Source: Eremomyces bilateralis CBS 781.70 | Lineage: Eukaryota; Ascomycota; Dothideomycetes; Eremomycetales; Eremomycetaceae | Direction of reading: 5' to 3' | Length of the DNA: 64,000 bases | Assembly: GCF_010015585.1 (NCBI RefSeq) | Contig: NW_022985069.1 | Location: 186,001-250,000, forward strand | Shown: piece after piece, positions 24,655-41,292 of the stretch | Layout: each line of letters begins with the position of its first letter | Position numbering within the stretch: position 1 is the stretch's first letter | The notes under the pieces: model-generated | Told to the model about the DNA's origin: nothing | The model's input: the letters and a program-made list of their open reading frames with translations, nothing else | The model's database searches: none | Made by a program: the position numbers and the translations under genes

Positions 24655-25428
24655 GCGACTGGACAAAGTGTGGGATTCATCCGCGATTGCATCTTTGCGT
24701 GCAGCGGTTTTCATATCAGTGGGAACATCCTGGCCCGATATTGTGTATCTCGGTATACACACGGTCGTTTGGGAGTTTATACATTGTTGTCCCTGGGCGA
24801 TTTCCAGGACACCTCAAAATCGGAGTAGTGGTTATATGGCGCTGGATCAGAATTTGCAAGCCGAATGGCTTTTGTGAGACTGGTCATCTCGTTCGGCGAT
24901 GACTTTGACTCTCTACCACTGGCGAGGAGCTCAATCAATTCTCTAGATAGTAGTCTACTAGCTTCTCTAGCATGAGCATCGGAAAAATACCCCGTCATCG
25001 GAATGAGTAATGTTCGAAGCTTCTTTCGGACTTTCGATTTGTCACATCACACACTGAAATGACCAGAGTCTACAAGTTAACAGTACTACTTCAAGACTGA
25101 GGAACGTGGACATGTATGAGTTTGGGATGAACGGTCTGTCGACCAGCGTTCCTGCAACATAAGCCAATCGGAATAGTTCTAGTTATTAATGTAAAGAAGT
25201 AACTACTACTTTCCTAGGATTCTTGCAGCTCACCACTCCTATTTTAGCTGGATAGCATACAGGCACCATACCTGGATTGAGGAATTGCGTGCTTCGTTCG
25301 AGGTGCTCATCGCTGAGTCAGCATCGTGAACCTCCAGTATCGGGTACTTCGTCTTGACTTCGTACTACTTCGGTTTCTATGCCACTGGCAGGCAACTGAA
25401 ATCTATCAGTGACTACACAAGATACGCC
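24655..25428. other. Intergenic region
   Basis: This is the 3' end of the checkpoint kinase gene and the promoter of the FMO gene. It is AT-richer than the genes. The FMO frame is open back to 25354, but the ATG at 25429 directly precedes the conserved dinucleotide-binding fold. Confidence 0.5.
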
Positions 25429-27867
25429 ATGACAACACTCCCAGCGTCCGTAGCTATTGTTGGAGCCGGACCCGGCGGCCTCACCGCTGCGAAAGCCCTC
25501 CTCTCCCTTCCCAACCATGCATTTCGAGTCACCATCTTCGAGCGGCAGAGTCGCGTCGGCGGCATGTGGGCTTTATCACGGACGAGTAGCCTGAGCGAGG
25601 GCAAAGTGAGCAAGGAGATGATGACGAATTTAAGCCGCTTTACCGACGCGTTTTCCGACTTGGCCTGGGAAAATGTCGAGTTGGATTCCGATCAGACGAA
25701 CGGTAAGCGGACCGGCCAGAAGGTCGAGCCTCCGATGTTTCCAAGAGCTTGGCAGGTAGGACGGTATTTGCAGGAGTACGCAAGGCGGTATGTCCCGGAG
25801 GAGGTGGTGAAGTTAAACTGCGAAGTAGTCAACGCCGACCGCGTTGATGAAGCGGGCTCGATGAAGTGGAGGGTCAGGTGGCAGCATCCGCATACAGATC
25901 CTATCACCGAGGATTCAGTCACGGTGGACGAATCCTGCGGGCTATTCGATTACCTGATCATCTCTTCGGGATTCTTTGACAAACCCAGACCTTTACTACT
26001 CAAGGACCACTTTCCAGCCAGTGGATACGACGCCAGTGTTGGGGACGTGAAGATAATCCATAGCACGGCTTTCCGCAGCCTGGAAAGCATCCTACCCAAT
26101 GGAGTACCATCCTCTGGAAAAATCGTGGTTATAGGAGGGGGCATGTCTGGGGCTGAAGCTGCTGCAAATGCCGCCTTTTTCCTCTCAGATGCTGCATACT
26201 CATCTCCAACCACCTCCTCCAAAGCAGAGCTAAGGGAGTCGTTGGGCTCTCGTAATGGTATTCAAATCCACCATGTGGCCAGTAGGCCGTTCTACAACAT
26301 GCCTAGATATCTCTCGGTCCCCCGACCGTCCTCTGAGAAGGCTTCAGAACAGGCCTTCCCATCCTTCTTACCAGTTGACCTCGTCTTCTATGATCTATCA
26401 CGCCGACCTGGCAACACTATATCTGCGAATACGGGTCGAGTGCCGCCAGAGACGACGAAGTCCACGCACCGGTTCTTGCGGAGCTTCGTGGGCGATCAAT
26501 CCGATCTGAGCCAGGCTCTTGTCGCAACTGAAGAAGAACTCGGGAAAGCAAGTTACGTTGCAATTTCGGATACATACGCTGAGTTCGTTCGGAGTGGGTT
26601 AATCGTTCCTTTGAGAGGGACGGTGACCCGCTTGGAAGAACAGAACATCGAGGATACGCGCACTAGCCTGTCCGCGTCGATCGTGGATGCCAATGGCACC
26701 AAGCCCCTAAATGACGTGGTGGCAGTCATTCACGCTACTGGGTTCCGTTGTCATTCAGCTCTGACATGGCTCGATCCGGCTGTCCTAGCGGACCTCGAGT
26801 ACAGCAAAGACTCCGAACGCCTTCCCCTCTTCCTGCAAGACCACGCCGTGTACAATGACGTGGTTCCGAATCTCGGCTTTGTAGGGTTTTACGAAGGTCC
26901 TTTTTGGGGCGTCATGGAGATGCAAGCAAGGCTTCTCGCGGACCGTTTCCTGGCCTTGCAACAGGAGAAGGCGCCAAAGCCAGGCATGCTTGACCGGGCT
27001 GAGGAGCATGCCAAGTTTGAGGAGCTCAGAGCTTCGATTCACAAACAAGACAGGAATGTGCCGCAATTTTGGCAAGGGGATTATGTTGGTATCGTGGAGG
27101 ATTATGCCCAGTTCATGGGAATCGAAAGAGAAGACGAGGGTTTCGGTCTGAATGGAGATCCAAGTCCATCTGTGCCAGCACGATTTACTACCAAAACTCC
27201 GACCACAGCATCGGACACCCAAGTCACACTTCAAAGTCTTCATAACATCCTCGATAGAGACCTAGGCTCACCTGGCTCGTCCAGCCGGTTCCTCTCCTGC
27301 GCACTTTTCCGCGCTTTACAAGGCGACTGGCTGATCCACCGCACTGTGACTTCCGCTTTACCTACCTTTCCTTCCGGCCTCCTTGAAGGCACCGCAACAT
27401 TCTACCCTCGCTCACCCTCTTCGGCCGGCTATGCCGCTGAATATTTCTACGAAGAGAAGGGCACGTTACTTATGACCAACGGCTACGAAGTCCAAGCATC
27501 TCGACAGTACGCCTACCGCCTCAGCGACGGAGTGGGCCACCGCACCGATGTCGCCTATGGGGAGCTGGGCCCGGAAGCGGAACGCGGTAGCAGAGACGGT
27601 ATTACGGCGTGGTTCGTCAAAGAGGACCGCAGTGTGGATTACCTGTTCCATCGCGTGCGTTTGGATGGTGCTCAGAAAGATTCACAGGCGTTCTGCAACG
27701 CAACAGGATCCCATCTCTGCGTGAAGGATACCTATGAGACCGAATACAAGTTCGAGTTCGATGGGGTGAACGTGAAGCGGTTCAACATCAAGTATCACGT
27801 CAGCGGGCCGAGTAAAGATTATACCCACGACACTTGGTTTCAGCGGGCGCAAAAGGAGGGAGCCTGA
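25429..27867 (+). CDS. FAD monooxygenase fused to a DUF6314 domain
   Basis: This single-exon gene encodes 812 residues. Residues 8-30 form the FAD Rossmann motif VAIVGAGPGGLTAAKALL. RVGGMW near 44-49 is the usual second contact. A second GxGxxG (VVIGGGMSGAEAAA, about 228-241) fits NADPH binding, and HATGFRCHS (about 437-445) resembles the C-terminal FMO ATG motif. From about residue 620 to the end lies a separate domain starting RFLSCALFRALQGDWLIHR, with beta-rich repeats resembling DUF6314. The first part should oxygenate a small molecule; the partner domain may bind the substrate, which is inference. No tailoring enzyme or synthase gene adjoins it, so a biosynthetic cluster is not indicated. 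Confidence 0.82.
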   Translation: MTTLPASVAIVGAGPGGLTAAKALLSLPNHAFRVTIFERQSRVGGMWALSRTSSLSEGKVSKEMMTNLSRFTDAFSDLAWENVELDSDQTNGKRTGQKVEPPMFPRAWQVGRYLQEYARRYVPEEVVKLNCEVVNADRVDEAGSMKWRVRWQHPHTDPITEDSVTVDESCGLFDYLIISSGFFDKPRPLLLKDHFPASGYDASVGDVKIIHSTAFRSLESILPNGVPSSGKIVVIGGGMSGAEAAANAAFFLSDAAYSSPTTSSKAELRESLGSRNGIQIHHVASRPFYNMPRYLSVPRPSSEKASEQAFPSFLPVDLVFYDLSRRPGNTISANTGRVPPETTKSTHRFLRSFVGDQSDLSQALVATEEELGKASYVAISDTYAEFVRSGLIVPLRGTVTRLEEQNIEDTRTSLSASIVDANGTKPLNDVVAVIHATGFRCHSALTWLDPAVLADLEYSKDSERLPLFLQDHAVYNDVVPNLGFVGFYEGPFWGVMEMQARLLADRFLALQQEKAPKPGMLDRAEEHAKFEELRASIHKQDRNVPQFWQGDYVGIVEDYAQFMGIEREDEGFGLNGDPSPSVPARFTTKTPTTASDTQVTLQSLHNILDRDLGSPGSSSRFLSCALFRALQGDWLIHRTVTSALPTFPSGLLEGTATFYPRSPSSAGYAAEYFYEEKGTLLMTNGYEVQASRQYAYRLSDGVGHRTDVAYGELGPEAERGSRDGITAWFVKEDRSVDYLFHRVRLDGAQKDSQAFCNATGSHLCVKDTYETEYKFEFDGVNVKRFNIKYHVSGPSKDYTHDTWFQRAQKEGA

Positions 27868-32056: not shown

Positions 32057-34816
32057 TCACACTAGCTCCTCCACAGATGATGGAATGGGAAAGGACCTTT
32101 TTGCCATACGCCATGCGGTTTCACTAAAGCTCGAAAACACCGTCCATGCCGGCGTGATGGCCTTGAACAGCTCCGCAAAGCTGCCAAGCAGTTGCGGACT
32201 ATATGCCCGCGAAATGGGAAGCCCAGTTGGACTTCGATACTGGTTCAATTGATGATTCATAGGATCAGAATCAGACTGGATGCCCGCGAGCGCCCAGACC
32301 ACGACCGCGGCATGATGAAGCGCGATGAGCGCCATGAGGTTGAACTGCGCGCGGACGGTCTCGTCCAGGGTAGATTCCTCGGATAGGAGACGCCAGATGG
32401 CGATGGCGTGGTCGAGGGCTTGGGTGGCGGATTCGGATTTGGCCCATTTGTAGGTGCGCTCGACGGAGGTTTGGTAGGCGGAGGACTGGTTGCCGCCGAT
32501 TTCGTAGGAGAGGAGGTGGAGACTACGGATGTCGGCGCGGAGGCGCAGGAAGCTGAGGTGGTAAAGCAACCGGGCGGCGAGGAGGGTGCTGCGGGTGCGC
32601 ATGTTGGGCTGTATGGGTTGATTGCTGGTGAACGATTGGTTCCATCGTGATAAGGCGCTGATAGTCCTGTTGAAGTCCTCGCGGAGGTTGCTCATCCGTC
32701 GAATCGTTTGTGTGAGCGACTCTTGGCTCGGAGGGGAGGAAGAGCTAGCAATTCTAGGAGGATGGTTCTTCATTGCGGAGCTGGTGTTCTTATTGATAAG
32801 ATGACGAGGCTCCAGGGCAGAGGTACTGATTGGTGCCGATGTCAATGCTCGTGGTATCGAGATTAGGTCGTCAATGCCGGTCAATCGATGAGCCATGTCT
32901 GCATCGTGTGAAAATCTCCAAACGGACTCTTGAAGACCAACGAGAATCAAGCCGTTATCAGCAAAGTGAAGAGACGGAAGAGTCTCATCATACTCCATTG
33001 CAATCCGCACGAGGTCCGAGAAATATAGGCCGCTCGGGCGCCGTAATTGCCACAGCTGGCTGGTGCCTTGATCGTATTTGGAAGATCCACTGGTCCACGT
33101 ATCGTCCGGACAGGGGAGTTCAAGATTGATTTCTTCTGATGAGAGCGTAGGCTTGGTGTCGAGCAAGATGCTTAAGAATATGTCAGCTCGTAAGATACCG
33201 AACGCCAGCCTCTTCTTGAGTTCCGAGCGTATCCATGCATCCGTTGGTAGCTCCGAGCATATGTAATTTTCTTCGCTGTTTCCGTCATAGGGCCGTTTTG
33301 TCCGGCGCGACTCGCTGAAGACATTCATCTTGCGAGCCCGAGCGATCAGGATACTTCCTAGGTGCTGCGCATTTGAGAATCCTTGCTTTTGACAGAAATA
33401 TAACGATCCCACCATGGTCAATAACATGGATTGAAGAATCCAGTTCAAAGATTCGTCCTGATCCTCTTCCAAAGGTGCTGTGACCAAAGCTCGTCGCAGG
33501 GCGTCTTGCAAGTGCAGTCCGAAGATGTTCCCCGATCGCTCGCTGTACATGGCTCCAATGGAAGCCAGTGTCAAATATAGAACAGGTGGTGCAAGGTCGC
33601 ACTTGAATCCGCGAACCCAGAATAGCGGCCAAAGAGCATGGAACCTTGTAAAGTAGAGCTTAACAAAGTGGTGCAAGAGATGAGGCATATCTGACTCTGC
33701 CAATATGGACTGGTTGATGCCAAATACCCCAGCCACCGTGGCCGACATTGAATTCCAGAATCGAGATCGTTTCTCCACGTTCCGCGATGCAGCTGTTGAC
33801 GAATGATTGAAAGCAAAGGTGATCAGCTGCTCGATCGTAGATGCCCATTTCTCCACATTCCCGGGCTTGGACGGGATCCCCTGGGTTGGGGTTCCAAGTA
33901 CAGGCTTTGGAAGTCGAGGGACAAAAGTAGGGGATGGTTGGTGGGATACACTAGGAAGAGAAGGGGAGAATGGAGTTTGACTTTCGTTGAGGGGCAGTGC
34001 TACCGGTAATAGGGATCGAGCCACGTGTGAGATATCGGTGATAGGAACAATTCTCTGAGAGGTCGCTCCCAGGCGGAATTGGGAGGGTCCAACGGCCAGA
34101 GAAAGGGCTTCTGGAGTTGGTTCCACAGGGTGCTCCAAATCAAGTAGGAGATTTGGCTGAGCATACAGGTCCTCATGGCGCCAAGGCCAGCCGGTCGGTT
34201 CCAACCAATTCCCTGAATGCCATATATCTTCCATGACAGCATCTAGGGAGTCGCTTGCGATTTCGAGCCTTTGCGTACTGGAAAGAAAGTCCGAACTCGA
34301 AGAGAAATCGGAACCTGACAGCTCCCAGGGTCCAATTGGAGAGGTGAGTTGATCTATGAGTGCTGAATTCGAGCTAGGAGTATCACTCCTTATCGTCCCT
34401 ACCGGGCTGGTTTCAGAGCGGCCGACTGATATCTGCCTAGATTTCGACTCTTTTATGTAGTTCCTTCGACTTAAGCGTCCAGTCTCGCTATCGGGCTCGT
34501 ACGAACACGGATGATCGGCGTTGAGACACGATGAGCATGGAGTGCCTCCGGAGCATTTTGCCTTGGCCTTTTTGCAGCGAGCGCAGGCTCGTTGACCCCG
34601 TCTTCGTCCATCTTCGGAGTCGTGGATCCGAGAATGCCTCTGGAGGAGGTCGCGCCGCCGGAAGTTCAAATGGCATATCGGACAGACATGATGGGGGCCG
34701 CCTTCGTGGTTATGTCGATGCCGGGTTAGAGAGTCGCGAGATTTGTACTTTTTACCACATGTCCCACAAACAAAGTTGTCTGCTCCAGAGAATGCTACTG
34801 ACTCTGGTGGTGCCAT
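32057..34816 (-). CDS. Transcription factor with two C2H2 fingers plus a Zn2Cys6 cluster
   Basis: An uninterrupted 919-residue frame starts at the ATG just before the fingers; the frame also extends to 34960, but that part looks non-conserved. Finger 1 uses C17, C20, H33 and H37, and finger 2 uses C45, C48, H61 and H65. A binuclear cluster follows at once with C78, C81, C88, C94, C97 and C104. The middle (about 420-720) carries the helical fungal-specific factor domain, including LYFTRFHALWPLFWV and MYSERSGNIFGLHLQDALRR. Such dual-class factors exist in filamentous ascomycetes and are often accessory regulators. It is divergently placed from the zinc finger-kinase-HET gene across 2.3 kb, so co-regulation is possible but unproven. 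Confidence 0.88.
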   Translation of the reverse strand: MAPPESVAFSGADNFVCGTCGKKYKSRDSLTRHRHNHEGGPHHVCPICHLNFRRRDLLQRHSRIHDSEDGRRRGQRACARCKKAKAKCSGGTPCSSCLNADHPCSYEPDSETGRLSRRNYIKESKSRQISVGRSETSPVGTIRSDTPSSNSALIDQLTSPIGPWELSGSDFSSSSDFLSSTQRLEIASDSLDAVMEDIWHSGNWLEPTGWPWRHEDLYAQPNLLLDLEHPVEPTPEALSLAVGPSQFRLGATSQRIVPITDISHVARSLLPVALPLNESQTPFSPSLPSVSHQPSPTFVPRLPKPVLGTPTQGIPSKPGNVEKWASTIEQLITFAFNHSSTAASRNVEKRSRFWNSMSATVAGVFGINQSILAESDMPHLLHHFVKLYFTRFHALWPLFWVRGFKCDLAPPVLYLTLASIGAMYSERSGNIFGLHLQDALRRALVTAPLEEDQDESLNWILQSMLLTMVGSLYFCQKQGFSNAQHLGSILIARARKMNVFSESRRTKRPYDGNSEENYICSELPTDAWIRSELKKRLAFGILRADIFLSILLDTKPTLSSEEINLELPCPDDTWTSGSSKYDQGTSQLWQLRRPSGLYFSDLVRIAMEYDETLPSLHFADNGLILVGLQESVWRFSHDADMAHRLTGIDDLISIPRALTSAPISTSALEPRHLINKNTSSAMKNHPPRIASSSSPPSQESLTQTIRRMSNLREDFNRTISALSRWNQSFTSNQPIQPNMRTRSTLLAARLLYHLSFLRLRADIRSLHLLSYEIGGNQSSAYQTSVERTYKWAKSESATQALDHAIAIWRLLSEESTLDETVRAQFNLMALIALHHAAVVVWALAGIQSDSDPMNHQLNQYRSPTGLPISRAYSPQLLGSFAELFKAITPAWTVFSSFSETAWRMAKRSFPIPSSVEELV

Positions 34817-35777
34817 TGAGGTCCGTTGTAAAAAATATTGTGCATGACTAAATGACGAGAAGCTTGAATTGAGTGCCAATGAGATGTAAAGAAAGGTTAT
34901 GCTACGCGGATTTACGAACGCCTCTTGCGAAGTATCACCAGAGAGTTCGCAGATATCCACCAGCGCAATCGAATAAGTAGTATGTCAAATGTGTCTCCAT
35001 TCACGATATGGTCCGGAGTGAATATTTTGTCTGGGAGATCCAGCTGGATCGTTCGTGGCGGATTTAATATGTGGCGCGACGCCTGCGAGCGGCATAGCAG
35101 ACGCAGCTCTCCCTGGCAATGGCAACGAAACATTTGGCCGAAGACCGAAGCACTCTGCGCAATATCGGACTCCCATCCCGGCACCACGGAACCCCTCCAT
35201 CAAGCCCGGACCCTCCGCCAAAATCAATGCTTTCATGGTATGAATGGAATGCTCCCTTTTCCAGACGAATCGGGTTCCGGCGAGAACGCGCGTACATCAT
35301 CCGAACCAGTATATAGGGCTAGAAACGAACTAGGCGAGGGAAATTGGCAGACTTGCAAGCTCGAATTCGACCACGATACAAGGGTGCTCAGTAGCAAGTG
35401 GGAGGAATATAATAGCGTTGGTGTGTTGGATGATGGAACGTAACGGATGAAGGGAGAAGGAAGGGATTCCTTCTGTATCCCGATGGCGATATCACAACCC
35501 CACAGGGCGATAGCCATTACCCATATGGATCGCCTTAGCCCAAGTGAGGGCAATCAATGAACGTGACATCACGGGGTAAGATTTAACTGAACCTATTGCC
35601 GTCGTCGATGTTGATGTAGTACCATGTGGTAGTGGTGGCATTGCCAGTTGACGATGCGATCCAGGGAGGCCCCACACCCCACAGCCGAATAACTTCCAAG
35701 ACTCTCGGCATTTGATCAGTTACGGGACTATACGGTACCATTATGCGCTATCGCTACCGAGAGGGTTGAGCGGGCGA

Positions 35778-37125: not shown

Positions 37126-40100
37126 ATGATGGATCGATTCTCTTCAGAGCAGCTTGAATATTTTCAAGATGGGCAAAACGATATCGATGGCAATCAACAG
37201 CAAGGCCTTGTGGGACAGAACCTAAATTCCTATATGCCGAATTCGCCATACCGGTTTGGGATGCCTGGGTCCTCCGTTCCAAGTCAAAATGCATCTCCTT
37301 TCCTCTTTAGCCCCGGTCCTACCTACTCTGAGCAGTCTCATGCGCAAAACCTTAGCAACGTACCTGCCCAACTCCGAGTTTCCACACCATCTTCAACTTT
37401 CCCGCCCCTCTCTTATCACCAGAGTCCTGCTATAGGCTTGATGCCTGGACTACCACGGACAGATCTCAGTCCGGATCAGTCATGGTTTGGTGACCCGAAT
37501 CTGTTGGTATGTTATCTAGAGGACTTCTTCCCTACCATCACACATTTCCCCTAACTTGGGTACTAGTCCATATCATCCTCGACTGGGCTGTCCGATACCC
37601 TTTCTACCCCCGTTTCAGGACAAGGGACCGTATCCACCTCTAACAATAGTTCCCTACCACCCTTAAGCCTTCCCTTTCAAACAGAGCCAGTTAACAAACA
37701 GACACAACCGGGTCTGGGCCACGCAATGAAACGACATGCAACGGAATCTCCAGCCGAGGGAAGGAAGAGACAAAAACACAACGTTTCCGAGCCAGAAAAT
37801 TCAGTTCACGGACAGAACATGAATAAGTGGAAGCAGCGAGGGCATGGGCAGCGCGAAAACCGTCAGCATGGTGTGCACAATTCACAGCCTCCACCCGGAT
37901 TGGAGGGTTGGTTCGAGGATATGGTAAAGGCCAGTTGGAAAACCACAAATAGGTCTCCCACCAGAGAATGTTTGTCCGGCATTGCGAAAAGCTTCAACCT
38001 GTCGCTCGAGATGGTTGAAGTCTGGACTCACAAGCTCTGTATGGACCAGTCTATCCCCTCCGGCGTAGATCCGACACTGTTATCCGCTCATACGCGGAAC
38101 CTTAACTCTCCGAATCGAAAGCGAGCGACCTCGGCCCCCAGCTCGCCATTGTCGGGCGGCGTTGTGCTTGACCACGAGCTACGGACACGGCTCGAGAAAT
38201 ATGTCCTCGATGCGCAGAGTAAAGATTGCAAGAAAACAAGCAGAAACCCCGATGGCATGTTCCATTGCACATGGAACTGCGGCTACACCACCAACCGGAC
38301 GGATGACTGGCAAAAGCACGAGGAAATCCGCCAACCCCAGAAATTCTGGATTTGTCAGTTTTGCTCGCGCGAGGAGGCAAATATCGCACATAGGGATGAC
38401 AAGATGGTGGAACATCTAGTCGCAAAACACAAGGAAGACCTTTCCCCAGGCAAGCCCTTGGATTCGAAAGGTCTGAAGGGACTTGCAAGGGAAAAGCTAC
38501 CGACGATGCACGTACTACAGTATCGAGAATCTTTCATTCTGCGCTGTGGTTTCGGTGGCTATAAGTTCAAGAGCTGGGACGACAGGAACAAGCATCTCAT
38601 TGCCCATTTCCGTGGAACAATCGAGCCGTCCTCCGCGTTTCCTGCGAACTGGTTAATGCCATGGCCGGACTATATGTCAGACGGATGCAAAAGACGTGAT
38701 GATGCTTCGCCAACGATGAGGAAAGGGAAGAACGCCGCCCCATCCTGGGAAAAGGGAGACCCGGGATACTCTAATTCGCACAATCGTACGACCAGCGAAG
38801 GCAACCCGGCCTTCCCCGCAAACTCCACTGAACACAACCAGCTTTCGTCCTGGGTTTCAGAAGACCTTAGCTTCATGGACCTTGGAGGCACGAAACTGGA
38901 AAGTTCGACTGCCGGCCTTCGCATTCTCGACCAAAACTTCATCTCTCTTCGTACCATTGCGAAACTTGGCACCGGCGTCACGGCCGAAGTAGACAAGGTT
39001 CGGGCTGAAGACGGAACGGAGTACGCGAGGAAGATGGTGAAGAACCCTCGACGACGCCCGTCGATAATGCAAAGATTGGTGCACGAATCACATATCATGC
39101 GGTCCATGGCGCACGAATCCCTCGTAACCTTCGTTGCTCTGGTTCAAGAAGGCGAGAGGCTGTATCTTCTCATGACTCCAGCCGCCGAACTGGATCTGGA
39201 ACAATTCTTGAGAGGAGAGGAGTCCAGGGTTGCCCTGGAGTCAAGTTTGATTGATCTCTGCTCGTCTGCAGCGGAAGGCTTGTCCTACATGCATCGCCAT
39301 CAAGTATACCACCGGGACCTCAAACCAGCGAATATTCTGGTTCACAATCGGAAGCTGTTGCTCGCCGATTTCGGTTTATCTTATCGATCGAAGGATGAGG
39401 TTAAATCGTCCATTCGCAACGCACCCTCCCCGATGTATGCCGCCCCCGAAGCCGCTCGAGGATCTCCGCACGGAATGCAGTCCGATGTTTTTTCACTGGG
39501 ATGCGTCTTCCTCGAGGTTCTTGCCGTGCGCCTTGGTGAATCTGTGGGCGACGTCCACGCGGCACTCGGCATGTCCAAGGACACCGGTCGACGCGCAACA
39601 TATCGTGAAAAGATCGGAGAGATTATGGATTGGATCTCTAGCCGATGCTCGCCCCAAGAGCTCGATCGAAAAATGTGCGACCTGGCTAGAGCTATGATGG
39701 ATCCGCTACCTCAACGCAGGCCAACCGCTACCCAGGTTCTCGAGACATTGCACCAGCTCCAGGTTCCAGGCTTGCATGGCGCTTTGGAGAACCATCCTGG
39801 CCTTGTTTCATCGCCAGTCAATTCCGAGGAAACTGGAGCTGTCCAAAGTTTGGGGCCGTCAACCTGGTGGACAATTAAGTTCCAATTGCAGAACTATTTC
39901 CTGGCTCTGAGCCAGATTGTCCGGTTTGACTCACATCGAATCTCCCACGGCCCAGGCAATCCGATTGCATTTGGAAACGATACAATGCAGTCATACCCAG
40001 CACGATTGTTAGACTTGAGCCAATATACTCCAGAGGAGGAGAGAGTTCGACTAGTTCTGGCTTCCATGGTCAAACCGTCCGCGGCCTACGTGGCTTTGAG

Positions 40101-41292
40101 CCATATATGGTCACCATCGGACGAGATCTGCACAACGCGTCAGTCGCTTGCACAGTTTGAGAGAGCAATCCATTGGAATATTCTTCCGTTGAAAGTTCAA
40201 GACGCATTGCGAGCAACAGTCCGGATGGGATGGAGATATCTCTGGGTCGACACTCTCTGCATTGTCCAAGATGATGAAAAAGAGCGGCAAGAAGCGGTGT
40301 TAAAGATGTCGCGGATTTACTCAAGCGCCATAGCGGTCATCATCGCCATATCTGAGCTCGATAGTCCCACTGGTGCAAACGACTCGGTTGCAACATCCAC
40401 GCTGTGGTCGCCAGCGAAATCAAAACCCTTCACTTCGGGATCCTTCACACTTGTCCACCGCTCTAAAGAGACAGCCAGGTATTCATTATCGCAAGCTTCC
40501 AACCCGACCGCGTCTGTCTTAGATAGATTCACGGTCAACGTGCAATCTGACCCGCAGAATAGTTCATCACGATGGTGGATGATCCAGAAAACACCAATAA
40601 TTAGGTCAATACAAAGCACGTCTTGTGGTCCATACCCCCATAAGCCCTGCCGAGTCTGTATCGGTCGCAGAGTCCGGCGCGCAACACGGCTTCTGCAGAC
40701 TCTGGCGCGGCTTGTCGGGCAAACCAAAGGAGTGAGTACCACTACTTCGAAGCCATATGACATCCCTACTAACGGAATCCAGGCTGCCCGAAGGACGCAT
40801 TTGCGGCAGAAATCCATCACCGGTGAAGCCAGCCCCGGCGCCCAAGTCCAACCAAGCCCACTGTACACCGATGTCATTGGCATCGGCGGCGGCGACTGCG
40901 GCGGATTCGACGACAGCTCTCTATTCCCAACGCGCCGGGACTTCTCCGGCCTTGGTGTGAATTCCGCATACGGGGCATACGTCAGCGCACCGAATCCACT
41001 CCCTCCATCCGATGAAGATGAAGGCTATCTCAGCGCGTCGGAGCATTGCTCCTTAAGCGATCGCGACCTAATGCGCGACCTAGACGAAGGCACGGATTTG
41101 GGAGAGCTAGACAATTTGGCGCCAGACGTGCAGGCCGAGCTTCGTGCGTGCATCGGAATTGGGATGTATACCATGCCTGTGGCAACTGCGAGTGTCGATC
41201 CGGAGCATGTGAAATGGTGGAATCTGAATGATGTTAGCTCGTGGGTATCGACGATTGAATCTTCGGTCTCGGACGTGTGTGACCTGATTTAA
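37126..41292 (+). CDS. Zinc finger, protein kinase and HET domain fusion protein
   Basis: Exons 37126-37506, 37567-40731 and 40783-41292 give 1351 residues. The third exon join removes a stop-free 51-bp intron and is the least sure. After a disordered N terminus, a helical block (about 245-290) and C2H2-like fingers (about 359-460, with FHCTWNCGY and ICQFCSRE) are followed by a complete Ser/Thr kinase domain at about 585-860: LGTGVTAEV, YARKMV, HRDLKPANIL, DFGLS and the SDVFSLGCVF helix. From about 966 to 1056 the protein shows the first two HET blocks, YVALSHIWSP and RYLWVDTLCIVQDD...IYSSA. The third HET block is not recognisable. HET domains drive cell death in fungal non-self recognition. 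A kinase-coupled sensor or effector is inferred, not shown. Confidence 0.8.

Follow-up and report, generated by a model that had tools for sequence, protein, structure and literature searches.

A gene of Eremomyces bilateralis that joins a finger block, a protein kinase and a partial HET domain

The stretch of DNA analysed here (the window; 64,000 nucleotides, G000:C3:186001-250000) comes from the 26.6-Mb assembly of Eremomyces bilateralis CBS 781.70. The gene under study occupies positions 37126 to 41292 of the window from ATG to stop and, like all its features described below, lies on the plus strand. Translation of this region matched the deposited model P152DRAFT_183460 (P0001, 1351 amino acids) residue by residue. 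The gene encodes a finger block, a protein kinase and a partial HET domain in that order, and it is one true multidomain fusion gene. Exon 2 was unbroken from residue 128 to residue 1182 and held the fingers, the kinase and the HET domain. The frame from 37567 to 41292 ran for 1241 codons without a stop, up to its own stop codon, and the other five frames contained 22 to 48 stops each. Intron 1 (37507 to 37566, 60 bp, GTATGT...TAG) was placed by frame analysis and by agreement with P0001, while intron 2 (40732 to 40782, 51 bp, GTGAGT...CTAAC...CAG) is in frame and missing from P0001. The original prediction, which put finger, kinase and partial HET in one frame of about 1350 codons, was therefore right about the single gene of 1351 amino acids and had overlooked the second intron. 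Codon usage was scored in ten segments rather than at every residue, with six further frames of the window, delimited by eye, as the training set; the annotated frame scored best in 8 of the 10 (exon 1, residues 128-225, residues 226-300, the fingers, the kinase, the linker, the HET core and exon 3). It was outscored by two other frames in residues 1070-1110 and slightly outscored by two antisense frames in residues 1110-1182. The C-terminal tail in exon 3 (40783 to 41289) contained no Pfam domain and gave a clear coding signal.

The kinase domain (Pkinase, residues 590-853; 38953 to 39744) was recognised by Pfam with an E-value of 8.9e-44 and a PF00069 score of 150.3 bits against a cut-off of 31.7. 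The glycine loop, K616, E634, HRD D711, N716, DFG D728 and APE were all located, and these are the canonical catalytic residues of protein kinases. ABC1 and Kdo kinase-like identities were rejected as they fell under the Pfam cut-offs. The closest kinase matches in the same genome were C7 (91.6 bits), C1, C23 and C24. A kinase tree of 25 rows, in which 2 of the 24 kinase loci (L011 and L058) had no row, grouped the window gene with P0027, a kinase-like protein of Delitschia, and with C24 and C7; the value of 91/85 is below the star threshold and a hint only; 3 of its 22 inner branches were starred, none of them around the window gene.

The HET domain had been staked on a profile search, and Pfam HET (PF06985) matched residues 968-1069 (40087 to 40392; E 4.3e-21, profile positions 1-100 of 146) with a score of 76.2 bits against a cut-off of 22.5, far beyond chance. 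Alignment with 20 other HET domains showed blocks 1 and 2 to be intact (YVALSHIWS and YLWVDTLCIVQDD), and AlphaFold2 modelled the HET core with block means of 66-93 in confidence over residues 940-1057. Block 3, which follows the pattern R-x-W-x-x-Q-E, reads at best RWWMIQK in this protein, with the near-invariant glutamate either a lysine or absent. The possible remnant, found in two MAFFT alignments, lies at residues 1127-1142 (40564 to 40611; R, W and Q kept, E changed to K), and when residues 1071-1182 were shuffled 20000 times, an R.W..Q pattern arose by chance in 430 cases. The predicted local distance difference test (pLDDT) value of residues 1127-1142 was below 50; block 3 was unfolded in the model of the window protein and folded in that of a control. 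Because block 3 reads at best RWWMIQK, the domain was filed as partial and not complete, in agreement with the earlier statement that the first two blocks are kept and the third cannot be found. In the control HET (P0122, model me290ec115ebf, residues 377-385), the block-3 W-x-x-x-E lies in a helix between strands C and D. As modelled, the helix bearing this glutamate is predicted to sit where TIR NADases carry their catalytic glutamate, and the best structural neighbours of the control model were nucleoside deoxyribosyltransferases and SARM1, at low Z.

The finger block consists of three fingers delimited by alignment with paralogues. Finger 1 (residues 359-383; 38260 to 38334) lacks its last zinc ligand, which is also missing in the C24 and C2 paralogues and present in C26. 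Finger 2 (residues 388-415; 38347 to 38430) has its ligands, and in finger 3 (residues 452-475; 38539 to 38610) the second cysteine is replaced by glycine, unlike C24, C2 and C26, which retain CGFC. Pfam zf-C2H2 stayed below its cut-off (E 0.91 on the fragment and 1.9 on the whole of P0001). A genome search with the finger region of the window protein recovered, besides itself, C24 (E 1.7e-8), C2 (1.2e-6) and C26 (0.0076), and a search with the C24 finger region recovered C2 (7.2e-45) and the window gene (6.6e-9). Pairwise BLASTP, with E-values for single pairs and composition correction off, also related the block to its paralogues. The proposed finger block is thus real and related to others of the same genome, with the reservation that two of its three fingers are incomplete. 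In the protein database, a search with the finger region, which reaches only relatives sharing exact words, recovered only the protein itself among 1120 candidates.

A degenerate homeodomain-like stretch (residues 236-284; 37891 to 38037) precedes the fingers. It was seen in the MAFFT alignment with paralogues only; Pfam homeobox gave no match in P0001 up to E 10, so a homeodomain is not recognisable beyond this resemblance. Pfam Homeobox_KN was matched at C26 (E 4.3e-8) and C6 (E 5.0e-17), followed in both by a finger block of the same build, and for this reason the finger block was placed with fungal homeobox-C2H2 transcription factors. Further towards the N-terminus, residues 182-198 (37729 to 37779) read KR-x10-RKRQK, a pattern resembling that of bipartite nuclear signals. 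The same finger block was also observed at L018 (G000:C2:354773-355429, minus strand) in a 669-codon frame, which also has another finger-like stretch and, close to its end, a second homeodomain-like segment.

Recurrence of the architecture was assessed by a genome search that ignored introns, and split kinases may be missed for that reason. It returned 102 HET matches and 143 kinase matches, and for 6 of the 102 HET matches a kinase match lay no more than 8 kb away (seven rows). Several of the 102 sit in stop-interrupted frames. After individual reading of four of the close loci (C20, C16, C13 and C6), two genes with both a kinase and a HET domain were left, the window gene and one on C20. 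The C20 gene (L033, G000:C20:74949-79500, minus strand) has a frame of at least 968 codons in which a cysteine-rich HET flank continues in frame after a kinase, and a 68-bp intron (GTGAGT...CTGAC...CAG) leads to a complete HET domain with RGWVLQE. Its product matched Pfam HET over positions 1-146 of 146 (E 3.4e-26) and Pkinase partially (E 1.4e-20). It resembles the window protein in having a kinase and then a HET domain on one gene, and differs from it in its complete HET domain, its divergent kinase and the lack of a noticed finger block. The other three pairs that were read were rejected as fusions: the kinases on C16 and C13 look like separate genes, presumably MAP-kinase genes from their appearance, and on C6 some 4 kb, with finger and further frames in it, separates the frame of the HET match from that of the kinase. 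The C23 pair is on opposite strands.

The other half of the architecture was found on C24 (L013/L037, G000:C24:148385-150298, plus strand), where a homeodomain-like stretch, a finger block and a kinase share one 638-codon frame. This protein shows no HET match in its own frame, and its kinase is only distantly related to that of the window protein. With finger and kinase on C24 and kinase and HET on C20, each half of the window architecture recurs once in the genome searched, and all three parts together were found in the window gene only, in the regions searched. In the protein database (7994 candidates scored), 120 of 484 matches were listed, many of them bacterial kinases, and of the proteins listed none but that of the window combined a kinase with a HET domain. 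A search with the HET region, again limited to exact-word relatives, yielded five other proteins, all HET and none with a kinase domain. The gene is so far known from this species alone. The view that a finger-kinase-HET order is not a described class holds for the excerpts of literature on kinases together with HET domains, in which neither this order nor a kinase-HET class was met. The Eurotiales proposed for a survey are the wrong clade, since Eremomyces bilateralis is a dothideomycete (Dothideomycetes, Eremomycetales).

The neighbouring frames were also read. Upstream on the opposite strand (32057-34984, minus) lies the adjoining dual-finger regulator that had been predicted; besides C2H2 it contains a Fungal_trans domain and a Zn2Cys6 cluster. 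Downstream come a gene for sirohaem biosynthesis and one for a DEAD-box helicase, and no sign of a linked incompatibility partner was seen in the neighbouring frames examined. Elsewhere in the window (25330-27867, plus), one 845-codon frame encodes a flavin monooxygenase-like domain and, at the C-terminus, DUF6314.

Taken together, the gene product resembles a signalling protein patched together from several sources more than a functional new system of self-recognition, because its HET domain is without a residue presumed to matter for activity. We tentatively prefer, at close to an even balance, the reading of a nuclear-type kinase of chimeric origin, with a HET core that serves as a non-catalytic adaptor. 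In it, a kinase would have been joined to a finger module of the homeobox-C2H2 type that probably carries a nuclear signal, and the first two thirds of a HET domain would follow the kinase. The protein would be a kinase active in the nucleus, its eroded finger module may serve as a docking surface, and the HET core could be a non-catalytic interaction module comparable to TIR adaptors without the glutamate, either multimerising the kinase or bringing it to other HET proteins. On this reading it would probably not be a cell-death executioner. Several points weigh against it. A PDB search with the HET model of the window protein gave no significant match, the nuclear location is predicted from the likeness of residues 182-198 to a bipartite signal, and the lack of a clear coding signal in residues 1070-1182 is as compatible with decay as with a linker. 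Nor was an orthologue found in another species that would show whether the HET core is under constraint.

Decay is the alternative in which the protein is in effect a finger-kinase signalling protein, with a HET domain gained by fusion, now degenerating and contributing little. It would explain why the HET match stops at position 100 of the 146 in the profile, why the glutamate of block 3 is lost or changed, and the two segments in which the annotated frame is not top-scoring, and the C24 protein shows that a finger-kinase protein exists without a HET match in its frame. Yet the frame is open across 1241 codons, blocks 1 and 2 are well preserved, with a confident model, and exon 3, behind the HET domain, has a clear coding signal; this is a possible account that we doubt somewhat more than we credit. 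The gap of 343 bp between the kinase match and the HET match leaves room in principle for a gene boundary, and hence for a finger-kinase gene and a HET fragment read as one; this was rejected because one unbroken exon (residues 128 to 1182) spans all parts, and since the deposited model is also one protein, such an artefact is very improbable.

The phosphorylation-gated incompatibility suggested in the original prediction, in which the kinase would control an active HET executioner on the same chain in non-self recognition, draws on the complete kinase motifs, the presence of a HET domain and the C20 kinase-HET protein with its complete HET in the same genome. For the window gene it is unsupported: the block-3 glutamate is a lysine or absent, block 3 is unfolded in the model but folded in the control, and both model confidence and coding signal drop after block 2. 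Moreover, incompatibility is not the role of most HET genes; in Podospora it is that of 4 of 132 (PMC10890737). Gated cell death on this chain is accordingly judged unlikely. A broader proposal, in which proteins with a kinase and a TIR-like HET domain on one chain form a small undescribed fungal class of immune-type signalling proteins, is unlikely too, if less so; the C20 protein would be its complete-HET form, and the window protein would be nuclear and catalytically dead, with a HET core recruiting or restraining other HET proteins and a kinase phosphorylating them.

A kinase and a HET domain on one chain would offer a handle on the upstream control of HET proteins, and a HET core that naturally lacks the block-3 glutamate could serve to test adaptor against enzyme function. 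With a truncated HET domain and a single known species, the window gene is of modest value by itself. For kinase-controlled HET signalling, the gene on C20 is the more useful candidate.

The protein was also compared with known systems. HET is among the commonest domains of filamentous fungi and its mode of cell death is unknown (PMC10890737). The HET-domain NOD-like receptors (NLRs; HET-NACHT-WD40: het-d, het-e, het-r) and the HET-lectin BH share the HET domain with the window protein, but they carry it N-terminally, whereas here it lies C-terminal of a kinase (PMC10890737, PMC10197012). Kinases do occur as N-terminal domains of fungal NLRs (PMC4986451, PMC10197012); in P0001, no nucleotide-binding domain or repeats (NACHT, NB-ARC) were matched by Pfam up to E 10, which sets the protein apart from fungal NLRs. 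Like the homeobox-C2H2 transcription factors, among which MoHOX members are drawn with C2H2 motifs (PMC2779367), the window protein has a related finger block behind a homeodomain-like stretch; it differs in its two incomplete fingers, in lacking a Pfam homeodomain and in the kinase and HET domain that follow. TIR adaptors without the catalytic glutamate, such as MyD88 (PMC9153377), offer an analogy only, that of a TIR-like fold acting by association; homology would extend no further than the distant relation between HET and TIR, and the window protein, in contrast to these adaptors, has a kinase on the same chain.
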